NCBI RefSeq assembly: GCF_045679555.1
Contig: NC_092089.1
Span: forward strand, 7,599,051-7,663,050
Source: Salvelinus alpinus
Lineage: Eukaryota > Chordata > Actinopteri > Salmoniformes > Salmonidae
Length of the DNA stretch: 64,000 nt
Direction: 5' to 3'
Every line of letters begins with the position of its first letter. Position 1 is the first letter of the stretch. The notes below the pieces were generated by a model. It did not search any database. It saw only the letters and a program-made list of their open reading frames with translations, and was not told where the DNA came from. Below, one piece after another: positions 55,801 to 61,800 of the stretch. The position numbers were made by a program, and so were the translations under genes.

Positions 55801-58800
55801 TTCATGAAGAGGAGAGGGTCAGTCTTAGTTCATGAAGAGAAGAGGGTCAGTCTTAGTTCATGAAGAGAAGAGGGTCAGTCTTAGTTCATGAAGAGAAGAG
55901 GGTCAGTCTTAGTTCATGAAGAGAAGAGGGTCAGTCTTAGTTCATGAAGAGAAGAGGGTCAGTCTTAGTTCATGAGGAGAAGAGGGTCAGTCTTAGTTCA
56001 AAAAGAGAAGAGGGTCAGTCTTAGTTCATGAGGAGAAGAGGGTCAGTCTTAGTTCATGAAGAGAAGAGGGTCAGTCTTAGTTCATGAAGAGAAGAGGGTC
56101 AGTCTTAGTTCATGAAGAGAAGAGGGTCAGTCTTAGTTCATGAAGAGAAGAGGGTCAGTCTTAGTTCATGAGGAGAAGAGGGTCAGTCTTAGTTCATGAA
56201 GAGAAGAGGGTCAGTCTTAGTTCATGAAGAGTAGAGGGTCAGTCTTAGTTCATGAAGAGAAGAGGGTCAGTCTTAGTTCATGTGAAGAGAAGAGGGTCAG
56301 TCTTAGTTCATGAAGAGGAGAGGGTCAGTCTTAGTTCATGAAGAGAAGAGGGTCAGTCTTAGTTCATGAAGAGGAGAGGGTCAGTCTTAGTTCATGAGAA
56401 GAGAAGAGGGTCAGTCTTAGTTCATGTGAAGAGAAGAGGGTCAGTCTTAGTTCATGTGAAGAGAGGGTCAGTCTTAGTTCATGAGAAGAGAAGAGGGTCA
56501 GTCTTAGTTCATGTGAAGAGAAGAGGGTCAGTCTTAGTTCATGAAGAGAAGAGGGTCAGTCTTAGTTCATGTGAAGAGAAGAGGGTCAGTCTTAGTTCAT
56601 GAAGAGGAGAGGGTCAGTCTTAGTTCATGAAGAGAAGAGGGTCAGTCTTAGTTCATATGAAGAGTAGAGGGTCAGTCTTAGTTCATGAAGAGAAGAGGGT
56701 CAGTCTTAGTTCATGAAGAGAAGAGGGTCAGTCTTAGTTCATGTGAAGAGAAGAGGGTCAGTCTTAGTTCATGAAGAGAGGAGGGTCAGTCTTAGTTCAT
56801 GAAGAGAAGAGGGTCAGTCTTAGTTCATGAAGAGGAGAGGGTCAGTCTTAGTTCATGAAGAGAAGAGGGTCAGTCTTAGTTCATGAAGAGAAGAGGGTCA
56901 GTCTTAGTTCATGAAGAGAAGAGGGTCAGTCTTAGTTCATGAAGAGTAGAGGGTCAGTCTTAGTTCATGAAGAGGAGAGGGTCAGTCTTAGTTCATGAAG
57001 AGGAGAGGGTCAGTCTTAGTTCATGAAGAGAAGAGGGTCAGTCTTAGTTCATGAAGAGAAGAGGGTCAGTCTTAGTTCATGAAGAGCCTGTAGACTGAAG
57101 CTCTCTGAGTCTCTGTATCTATCTTCCTGTCTGTGTGGCCTGTAGACTGAAGCTCTCTGAGTCTCTGAATGAGCTTCACATGTTGACCTCTGCTTCCACC
57201 TGGTGGGGGAAAGGAAAAATAACCCATCATCCCAATATATGCTTTCTTAATGCCGTCATCCAACATTTATTTATTTTACCTTTTATTTAACTAGGCAGGT
57301 CAGTTAAGAACCAATTCTTATTTTCATTGACGGCCTAGGAACAGTGGGTTAACTGCCTTGTTCAGGGGCAGAATGACATATTTTTACCTTGTCAACTCGG
57401 GGATTCGATCTTGCAACCTTTTGGTTACTAGTCCAACGCTCTAAACCACTAGGCTACCTGTCGCCCCAAACGGTATCGACAGACATTGACAGTGATTAAT
57501 TATCAGCATGTTGTGAATCCTCAAACCTGTTGTCTCTTTCTCTCCGTGTCTCTCCTCTCTGTCCTCCAGCTGTCCTGCAGTCTGCTCAGATCCTCATCAT
57601 CCTGGTCCTGATGACGGTAACGCTGCTGGTGATTGGCTGTCTGTTGAACCACTACAAACTGTCTGCCTGCTCCTTGACAACCAGACAGAGCCGGGCCAGG
57701 AGGCAAGCGCAACACCTGCAGCAGGTCAGGACAGTGTGTCAGTGGGGGCTGCTGAGGGGAGGACGGCTCTTAATAATGTCCGGAACGGAGCGAATGGCAT
57801 CAAACCCCTGGAAACCATGGAAACAGTGTGTTTGACGTGCCTGGTTCCATTCCACCAGTTCCGATCCAGTCATTACAACCAGCCTGTCCTCCCCAATTAA
57901 GATGCCATCACCCTCCTGTGATTTCTCTCTCTGTGTGTGTGTGTGTGTGTGTGTGTGTGTGTGTGTGTGTGTGTGTGTGTGTGTGTGTGTGTGTGTGTGT
58001 GTGTGTGTGTGTGTGTGTGTGTGTGTGTCTGTGTGTCTGTGTGTGCATGCATATATACCCAGTCCTCCAGACACCTCTCCCCTCTTCATGTGTAATTCAC
58101 CAGACACCTGTCTAGACAGCTGACCCTGTACACCAGACACCTGTCTAGACAGCTGCCCCTGTTCACCAGACACCTGTGTAGACAGCTGCCCCTGTACACC
58201 AGACACCTGTCTAGACAGCTGACCCTGTACACCAGACACCTGTCTAGACAGCTGCCCCTGTTCACCAGACACCTGTCTAGACAGCTGCCCCTGTTCACCA
58301 GACACCTGTCTAGACAGCTGACCCTGTACACCAGACACCTGTCTAGACAGCTGACCCTGTACACCAGACACCTGTCTAGACAGCTGACCCTGTACACCAG
58401 ACACCTGTCTAGACAGCTGCCCCTGTACACCAGACACCTGTCTAGACAGCTGCCCCTGTACACCAGACACCTGTCTAGACAGCTGCCCCTGTTCACCAGA
58501 CACCTGTCTAGACAGCTGCCCCTGTTCACCAGACACCTGTCTAGACAGCTGCCCCTGTTCACCAGACACCTGTCTAGACAGCTGCCCCTGTACACCAGAC
58601 ACCTGTCTAGACAGCTGCCCCTGTACACCAGACACCTGTCTAGACAGCTGCCCCTGTTCACCAGACACCTGTCTAGACAGCTGCCCCTGTTCACCAGACA
58701 CCTGTCTAGACAGCTGCCCCTGTTCATCAGACACCTGTCTAGACAGCTGCCCCTGTTCACCAGACACCTGTCTAGACAGCTGACCCTGTTCACCAGACAC

Positions 58801-61800
58801 CTGTCTAGACAGCTGACCCTGTACACCAGACACCTGTCTAGACAGCTGCCCCTGTACACCAGACACATGTCTAGACAGCTGCCCCTGTACACCAGACACA
58901 TGTCTAGACAGCTGCCCCTGTTCACCAGACACCTGTCTAGACAGCTGCCCCTGTACACCAGACACCTGTCTAGACAGCTGACCCTGTTCACCAGACACCT
59001 GTCTAGACAGCTGCCCCTGTTCACCAGACACCTGTCTAGACAGCTGACCCTGTACACCAGACACCTGTCTAGACAGCTGCCCCTGTACACCAGACACCTG
59101 TCTAGACAGCTGCCCCTGTACACCAGACACCTGTCTAGACAGCTGCCCCTGTTCACCAGACACCTGTCTAGACAGCTGCCCCTGTTCACCAGATACCTGT
59201 CCAGACAGCTGACCCTGTTCACCAGACACCTGTCTAGACAGCTGCCCCTGTACACCAGACACCTGTCTAGACAGCTGCCCCTGTCCACCAGACACCTGTC
59301 TAGACAGCTGCCCCTGTACACCAGACACCTGTCTAGACAGCTGCCCCTGTTCACCAGACACCTGTCTAGACAGCTGCCCCTGTTCACCAGACACCTGTCT
59401 AGACAGCTGCCCCTGTTCACCAGACACCTGTCTAGACAGCTGCCCCTGTTCACCAGACACCTGTCTAGACAGCTGCCCCTGTACACCAGACACCTGTCTA
59501 GACAGCTGCCCCTGTACACCAGACACCTGTCTAGACAGCTGCCCCTGTTCACCAGACACCTGTCTAGACAGCTGCCCCTGTTCACCAGACACCTGTCTAG
59601 ACAGCTGCCCCTGTTCACCAGACACCTGTCTAGACAGCTGCCCCTGTTCACCAGACACCTGTCTAGACAGCTGACCCTGTTCACCAGACACCTGTCTAGA
59701 CAGCTGACCCTGTTCACCAGACACCTGTCTAGACAGCTGCCCCTGTACACCAGACACCTGTCTAGACAGCTGCCCCTGTACACCAGACACCTGTCTAGAC
59801 AGCTGACCCTGTTCACCAGACACCTGTCTAGACAGCTGCCCCTGTACACCAGACACCTGTCTAGACAGCTGACCCTGTTCACCAGACACCTGTCTAGACA
59901 GCTGCCCCTGTTCACCAGACACCTGTCTAGACAGCTGACCCTGTACACCAGACACCTGTCTAGACAGCTGCCCCTGTACACCAGACACCTGTCTAGACAG
60001 CTGCCCCTGTACACCAGACACCTGTCTAGACAGCTGCCCCTGTTCACCAGACACCTGTCTAGACAGCTGCCCCTGTTCACCAGACACCTGTCTAGACAGC
60101 TGCCCCTGTTCACCAGACACCTGTCTAGACAGCTGCCCCTGTACACCAGACACCTGTCTAGACAGCTGCCCCTGTACACCAGACACCTGTCTAGACAGCT
60201 GCCCCTGTTCACCAGACACCTGTCTAGACAGCTGCCCCTGTACACCAGACACCTGTCTAGACAGCTGACCCTGTTCACCAGACACCTGTATAGACAGCTG
60301 CCCCTGTTCACCAGACACCTGTCTAGACAGCTGCCCCTGTACACCAGACACCTGTCTAGACAGCTGCCCCTGTTCACCAGACACCTGTATAGACAGCTGC
60401 CCCTGTACACCAGACACCTGTCTAGACAGCTGCCCCTGTTCACCAGACACCTGTCTAGACAGCTGCCCCTGTACACCAGACACCTGTCTAGACAGCTGCC
60501 CCTGTCCACCAGACACCTGTCTAGACAGCTGCCCCTGTTCACCAGACACCTGTCTAGACAGCTGCCCCTGTTCACCAGACACCTGTCTAGACAGCTGCCC
60601 CTGTTCACCAGACACCTGTCTAGACAGCTGCCCCTGTTCACCAGACACCTGTCTAGACAGCTGCCCCTGTTCACCAGACACCTGTCTAGACAGCTGCCCC
60701 TGTACACCAGATGGTTCTTCTTCTAACATGTCTTCCTGAGTCAAGCAGACCGATATTCGATGGCCATTAAGTTAATGGTTTCCTCCACAGGTTAAATATT
60801 CATCCTGTCTCTTTCTGTTATCAGGATGTGTGTCTCTGGCCGCCGGACAGCGGCTCTCGACAAGGTGCCTCCGAGGTAATAATCCAGGAAGTGTGTGTGT
60901 GTGTGTGTGTGTGTGTGTGTGTGTGTGTGTGTGTGTGTGTGTGTGTGTGTGTGTGTGTGTGTGTGTGTGTGTGTGTGTGTGTGTGTGTGTGTGTGTGTGT
61001 GTGTGTGTGTGTGTGTGTGTGTGTGTGTGTGTGTGTGCGCGCACAGCATGAAGAGCGAGACAGGTCTACTTGGCAGTCACTGACATCAGTCTGTCTGATA
61101 TGATGAGGACATTACTGTCCATTATCCAGACACACAGTCCCTGAGTCACTGGAGCCAATCTGTTTAGTAATGGACCCCACTGGAGACAATCTGTTTAGTA
61201 ATGGACCCCACTGGAGACAATCTGTTTAGTAATGGACCCCACTGGAGCCAATCTGTTTAGTAATGGACCCCACTGCAGCCAATCTGTTTAGTAATGGACC
61301 TCACTGGAGACAATCTGTTTAGTAATGGATCCCACTGCAGCCAATCTGTTTAGTAATGGACCCCACTGCAGACAATCTGTTTAGTAATGGATCCCACTGC
61401 AGCCAATCTGTTTAGTAATGGACCCCACTGGAGACAATCTGTTTAGTAATGGACCCCACTGCAGCCAATCTGTTTAGTAATGGACCCCACTGGAGACAAT
61501 CTGTTTAGTAATGGACCCCACTGGAGCCAATCTGTTTAGTAATGGACCCCACTGGAGCCAATCTGTTTAGTAATGGACCCCACTGCAGACAATCTGTTTA
61601 GTAATGGACCCCACTGGAGACAATCTGTTTAGTAATGGACCCCACTGGAGACAATCTGTTTAGTAATGGACCCCACTGGAGACAATCTGTTTAGTAATGG
61701 ACCCCACTGGAGCCAATCTGTTTAGTAATGGACCCCACTGGAGACAATCTGTTTAGTAATGGACCCCACTGGAGCCAATCTGTTTAGTAATGGACCCCAC

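Follow-up and report, generated by a model that had tools for sequence, protein, structure and literature searches.

A 79-unit minisatellite in an intron of Salvelinus alpinus ldlrad4b repeats a composite Smad3/Smad4 motif

Smad motifs repeated within an intron of ldlrad4b

The stretch of DNA analyzed here (64,000 nucleotides of Salvelinus alpinus, contig NC_092089.1, positions 7,599,051 to 7,663,050 of the forward strand; hereafter the window, numbered from its first letter) carries exons of a gene that we identify from its sequence as ldlrad4b, a PMEPA1 paralogue of the PMEPA1/LDLRAD4 family. Between two of these exons lies a tandem array of a 33-bp unit containing a palindromic Smad-binding element (SBE). 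The exons and the array are as follows.

57570..57724, plus strand: transmembrane exon of ldlrad4b, ending ...RRQAQHLQQ (inferred splice sites, open frame and salmonid LDLRAD4 homology)
58096..60711, plus strand: the array, 79 units and a partial one of TTCACCAGACACCTGTCTAGACAGCTGCCCCTG (Tandem Repeats Finder, TRF, and direct reading)
60825..60875, plus strand: 51-nt exon of ldlrad4b (17 residues), starting 113 bp past the end of the array (splice signals, open frame)
62713..63240, plus strand: last coding exon of ldlrad4b, with PPPY, PPNR (the Smad-interaction motif), PPAY and the stop codon (splice signals, motif scan)

The three exons have normal splice signals and form a single open frame, and the array takes up 84% of the 3,100-bp intron in which it lies. 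The 276-aa protein of S. fontinalis has one stretch 5' of the transmembrane exon, and the array-bearing intron is plausibly intron 2. As befits a member of the family, the partial window protein (243 aa) has PPPY at residue 118, PPNR at 146 and PPAY at 190 in addition to a transmembrane segment; PY and Smad-interaction motifs are so named for TMEPAI (PMC8508116; here and below, cited papers are drawn on in part). A Pfam scan of the window protein returned no family at E values up to 1, and PF27646 is assigned to relatives in precomputed tables.

The original prediction placed the array in a PMEPA1-type inhibitor gene of TGF-beta signaling, and this holds for the family but not for the gene, which is ldlrad4b. 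The closest protein match is from Salvelinus (95%), and of the seven listed matches with a salmonid organism name, five are named LDLRAD4 or LDLRAD4b and two lack a gene name. A quick tree was built from 34 rows, of which 33 were chosen by hand from 120 listed matches, with mammalian PMEPA1 left out. In it the window protein groups with salmonid LDLRAD4, on the same side of a well-supported split as tetrapod LDLRAD4; the other side holds TMEPAI-named rows, including coelacanth TMEPAI, mixed with some LDLRAD4-named fish. The names of the salmonid matches and this tree placement led to the rejection of pmepa1 as the host gene.

Several further observations concern the gene itself. In protein alignment, the 51-nt exon is missing in the S. 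namaycush model P0005 and altered in P0004. The last exon encodes ERFSLFQ with a Leu where 13 of 13 aligned relatives have Arg, and just 5' of its acceptor (62713), at 62577-62720, lie tandem tctag|GTG..TGTA copies that resemble this acceptor and the start of the exon and are possible decoy splice sites. A search for literature on salmonid ldlrad4 gave no ldlrad4 paper among the matches listed, which by itself does not prove absence from print.

Each unit reproduces an arrangement selected by Smad complexes in vitro

The array was proposed as 79 tandem units of 33 bp, and both figures stood within the limits given above, with all copies running head to tail. On recount, GTCTAGAC is intact in 75 of the 79 units, as first stated, and these 75 are the only occurrences in the window; 100 dinucleotide-preserving shuffles of the window gave a mean of 2.6 and a maximum of 7. 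The four remaining units carry GTGTAGAC at 58176, GTCCAGAC at 59199 and GTATAGAC at 60288 and 60387, positions that agree with the earlier ones to within one base. A CAGAC, said to precede every palindrome, is found 5' of it in 78 units and is replaced by CAGAT in the other one. At the same place, 77 units have the longer CAGA box CCAGACA, and in motif content the array thus belongs among arrays of putative Smad-binding elements. The palindrome is flanked by two E-boxes, each overlapping it by one base, and the array holds 76 of CACCTG and 79 of CAGCTG. The unit also has an internal duplication in which 9 of 12 positions match, which may leave its AGAC elements dependent on one another.

GTCTAGAC is described as a high-affinity Smad3/Smad4 palindrome (PMC5727232, PMC11063908), in agreement with how it was first named. 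Read on the minus strand, the unit gives GTCTAGAC-AGG-TGTCTGG, and the exact composite CCAGACA-N3-GTCTAGAC is present in 74 of the 79 units, with the site order and spacing of a published composite. In that work, activated Smad complexes offered 18-nt random DNA selected mostly GTCTAGACXXXTGTCTGG (PMC11607640). As the composite of the unit is the reverse complement of this arrangement, the match is stronger than the one originally reported. The sites follow a matching order in the reporter sequences in Table 1 of the same paper, where the spacers range from 2 to 4, and the paper gives Smad3 a preference for CAGA and Smad4 a preference for the SBE, with TGF-beta responses from reporters made of only CAGA or only SBE sites (PMC11607640).

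The chance of meeting a given 8-mer in a 33-bp unit is 33/65536 for uniform sequence, for which the original figure of about 1 in 2,000 is right, and rises to about 1 in 300 in dinucleotide shuffles of the unit. A random unit of 33 bp would contain the exact composite with a probability of 6e-8 under uniform sequence, and 0 of 100,000 dinucleotide shuffles contained it. Merging the TRF table by hand gives 16 minisatellites in the window. Dinucleotide shuffling predicts a CAGA 7-mer or SBE 8-mer in 0.25 of these 16 array units, compared to two seen, the second being a 39-bp array (P of about 0.02 for at least two, in a test of CAGA that was picked after the finding was seen).

Growth of the array and the case for coincidence

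Growth of the array proceeded through tandem and block duplications. Along it, a series of nine unit types is repeated (0 of 500 shuffles), and unit self-similarity peaks at a lag of 27 units (0 of 2,000 shuffles), with lesser peaks around 7, 14 and 20. One explanation for this growth lies in the motif itself: its 12-bp palindrome, CTGTCTAGACAG, could allow single-stranded DNA to fold while the locus is replicated or repaired, in which case the motif would explain the expansion and say nothing of Smad function. The palindrome is perfectly self-complementary, with 16 of 18 positions matching over 18 bp, and four units folded as DNA fall below their shuffles (z -3.2; 1 of 200 shuffles as low). 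Perfect palindromes of at least 8 bp occur in only 2 of the 16 array units, near the rate in unit shuffles (10% per unit), so palindromes are no general driver of expansion in the window, and we regard this explanation as very improbable for the array.

A second explanation is neutral coincidence, in which the array is one of many intronic minisatellites, its founder happened to contain Smad motifs, and it now lies silent in chromatin with ldlrad4b unaffected. This has a little under an even chance of being right. The block-wise growth just described is what it would lead one to expect, and the internal duplication of the unit makes repeated AGAC motifs likelier. It has more difficulty with a composite of 15 specified bases, in an independently published spacing and inside a gene of the Smad pathway, and with a scan of 45 transcription factor consensus motifs against the 16 array units, in which five arrays matched any motif and only the 33-bp Smad array matched more than one.

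The competing reading, that a neutrally expanded minisatellite is able to bind Smad3/Smad4 and perhaps serves as a TGF-beta-responsive element in cis, is one that we put forward tentatively from the sequence. A number of results and published statements weigh against it, beginning with conservation. Intact palindromes in 75 of 79 units are no evidence of constraint when set against the rest of the unit. Eighteen of the 33 circular 8-mers of the unit avoid its two polymorphic sites, allowing GTCTAGAC to be compared with 17 others, some of them overlapping neighbors; ten of these are intact more often than the palindrome, three equally often and four less often. No conservation of the motif above the remainder of the unit was thus found among these 8-mers, which leaves room for coincidence. 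Similarly, of ten rare variant cells, six fall in the 15 specified bases of the composite (4.5 expected), two in the spacer and two outside. The two polymorphic sites, for their part, are both outside the composite, as would happen by chance with a probability of about 0.2 (15/33 x 14/32). The recurrence of unit types in blocks also means that the copies are not independent of one another.

The remaining points on this side concern background frequencies and the published sites themselves. Trinucleotide-preserving shuffles, a very conservative null in which much of the motif survives, yield the composite in 0.23% of cases and the SBE in 12%, and the probability that at least one of 16 arrays has a Smad 7- or 8-mer is 0.22, in a window of which tandem repeats make up 93%. 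The published composite rests on a single sentence on pilot experiments, with an 18-nt library that limits the spacing visible, and the same source reports that the SBE is infrequent even among Smad2/3-bound regions and that some selected sequences fail to activate (PMC11607640). CAGAC clusters are rare in native peaks, at 4% for Smad3 and 6% for Smad4 (PMC5727232). Finally, with E-boxes overlapping the palindrome on both sides, repressors could compete for the site. Without sequence evidence of constraint, a functional enhancer and neutral coincidence come out about equally likely.

A possible cis-acting element in a gene from a family of TGF-beta inhibitors

If the array does function as an enhancer, its history may have begun with local salmonid sequence in the ldlrad4b intron that by chance held a Smad3/Smad4 composite, with a CAGA box, 3 bp and a palindromic SBE. 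A founder bearing this composite would then have been amplified to about 79 copies by tandem and block duplication, each copy presenting three putative half-sites for MH1 domains, with the palindrome preferred by Smad4 and the CAGA box by Smad3. Where chromatin is open, the array would most likely recruit activated Smad3-Smad4 and could, as an element acting in cis, make ldlrad4b responsive to TGF-beta/activin. Since the mammalian relatives of ldlrad4b are negative regulators of the pathway, such an element would serve negative feedback. In a bolder form of this proposal, a natural multimer of the Smad3-Smad4 composite selected in vitro would determine the gain of negative feedback on TGF-beta in salmonids, its fast-evolving repeat number serving to tune the response, possibly with help from the 39-bp CAGA array; we think this unlikely on present sequence data.

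Work on related genes bears on whether such a feedback loop is to be expected. In the 2014 study of Nakano on C18ORF1, this protein reportedly binds Smad2/3 and is said to show no TGF-beta induction in cells of a different kind from those of the trabecular meshwork. In human trabecular meshwork cells, LDLRAD4 is induced by TGF-beta2 with a log fold change (LogFC) of 7.23, compared to 4.81 for PMEPA1, and the induction was confirmed by quantitative reverse-transcription PCR (PMC9187693). In mouse embryonic stem cells, pSmad2 binds an intronic region of Tmepai (PMC3121749).

The array can be set beside several known systems. As in regulatory intronic variable number tandem repeats (VNTRs), it is a tandem unit with transcription factor sites inside an intron. 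The VNTR in intron 2 of 5-HTT has a copy number far below the 79 of the array, and the Smad-bound intronic region of PMEPA1/TMEPAI consists of unique sequence and is not known to form a tandem array. The 5-HTT VNTR likewise repeats in tandem within an intron and contains enhancer sequences (PMC8096271); it involves other factors, and its enhancer activity has been studied, whereas that of the array is putative. The PMEPA1/TMEPAI region also lies in an intron of a paralogous Smad inhibitor (PMC3121749), which is nevertheless a different gene from ldlrad4b. GGAA microsatellite enhancers of EWS-FLI resemble the array in being homotypic repeats for one transcription factor (PMC8096271); their unit is short, however, and their factor an oncogenic fusion, where the array has a 33-bp unit and, putatively, a normal signaling factor. 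Closest in design are the CAGA12 and SBE reporters, which consist only of Smad sites (CAGA or GTCTAGAC) placed head to tail and are TGF-beta-inducible (PMC11607640), but these are synthetic plasmids with 12 or 3 sites, while the array is natural and intronic, with 79 copies and both site types in each unit. If the array is an enhancer, evolution would have built, within a gene acting to damp the pathway, much the same construct as laboratory TGF-beta readouts, and the locus would allow a clear test of the idea that a signaling pathway can be rewired through minisatellite expansion. If it is not, it serves as a warning that a neutral array can yield even a 15-base composite match.

Besides acting in cis, the array was originally suggested to be a sponge that titrates Smad3/4 away from other genes, and at up to three half-sites in each of 79 units it would offer up to 237 per allele. 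This suggestion was not borne out by the numbers. A HaCaT cell has about 360,000 Smad2 and about 840,000 Smad4 molecules (PMC1978528), and the at most 474 half-sites of a diploid cell would correspond to about 0.13% and 0.06% of these, respectively, with the reservation that the counts are whole-cell totals for a human line and not the nuclear active Smad of fish. A global sponge was rejected on this basis, as nuclear active Smad would have to be scarcer by about three orders of magnitude for it to work, and we consider it scarcely credible.

An effect through RNA is a further alternative, in which the transcript of the array folds between neighboring palindromic units and, with repeated acceptor-like stretches (CCCCTGTTCACCAG), affects whether the 51-nt exon is included. 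The folding energy of four units (59355-59486) is -50.8 kcal/mol, compared to -30.0 for shuffles (z -5.7), the exon lies close behind the array, and the two models noted above lack it or have it altered. Any tandem palindrome would fold in this way, however, the real acceptor has a pyrimidine-rich tract, and gene models are unreliable in repeat-rich regions; taken together, we judge this effect to be improbable. An Rfam search returned no match at gathering thresholds.

In addition, a minus-strand open frame of 1010 aa (57739-60771) passes through the array. A coding role of the array was rejected, as the stop-free frame of a 33-bp unit yields long open frames mechanically.

A second copy of the array junction

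A protein search with the minus-strand translation of the array, in which scoring was limited to the 7,991 candidates with the most shared words, gave one match, P0121. This is a 133-aa open reading frame on a 514-bp contig that holds four units of the consensus and, in a shifted frame, about one further unit, followed by the junction of the array with its flank, and it probably comes from another species or from the ohnologue. In stretches picked by hand, the junction differs from the window at 2 of 22 residues and the dispersed-repeat flank at 7 of 27 (indels and the TG stretch excluded). All four full units translate as the window consensus, which holds at the protein level only and does not prove the palindrome in the DNA; with a 33-bp unit and a single comparison, it cannot serve to test for selection. 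When P0121 and the window were combined into a profile, 107 other proteins appeared among the matches listed, and all seven of those examined share only the dispersed-repeat flank. A 22-base piece of the unit had no exact match in viral_contigs or in prokaryote genome_contigs, non-fish collections that are little informative here.

Repeats surrounding the array

The following features lie in the intron 5' of the array or farther upstream.

45990..49988, plus strand: 39-bp minisatellite with 96 CAGA boxes (TGTCTGG), 5' of the transmembrane exon (TRF, motif counts)
57745..57931 (approximate), no strand assigned: part of a dispersed repeat (similar minus-strand translations in otherwise different proteins)
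57932..58045, plus strand: (TG)n microsatellite adjoining the array (TRF)
58067..58090, plus strand: degenerate unit-like sequence CCAGACACCTCTCCCCTCTTCATG, with CCAGACA at 58067 (direct reading)

The degenerate sequence at 58067 is possibly a relic of the founder unit, and the 39-bp CAGA-box array likely lies within ldlrad4b as well. Elsewhere, a 21-bp array (TCAGGGTTATAGTAGATGTGG) at 1-36490 takes up more than half of the window, and a 25-bp array at 43259-44637 (about 55 units, from total length/25), also 5' of the transmembrane exon, has a consensus resembling a 3' splice acceptor, TTTCCTYTCTCCTCCTTACAG|GACG.

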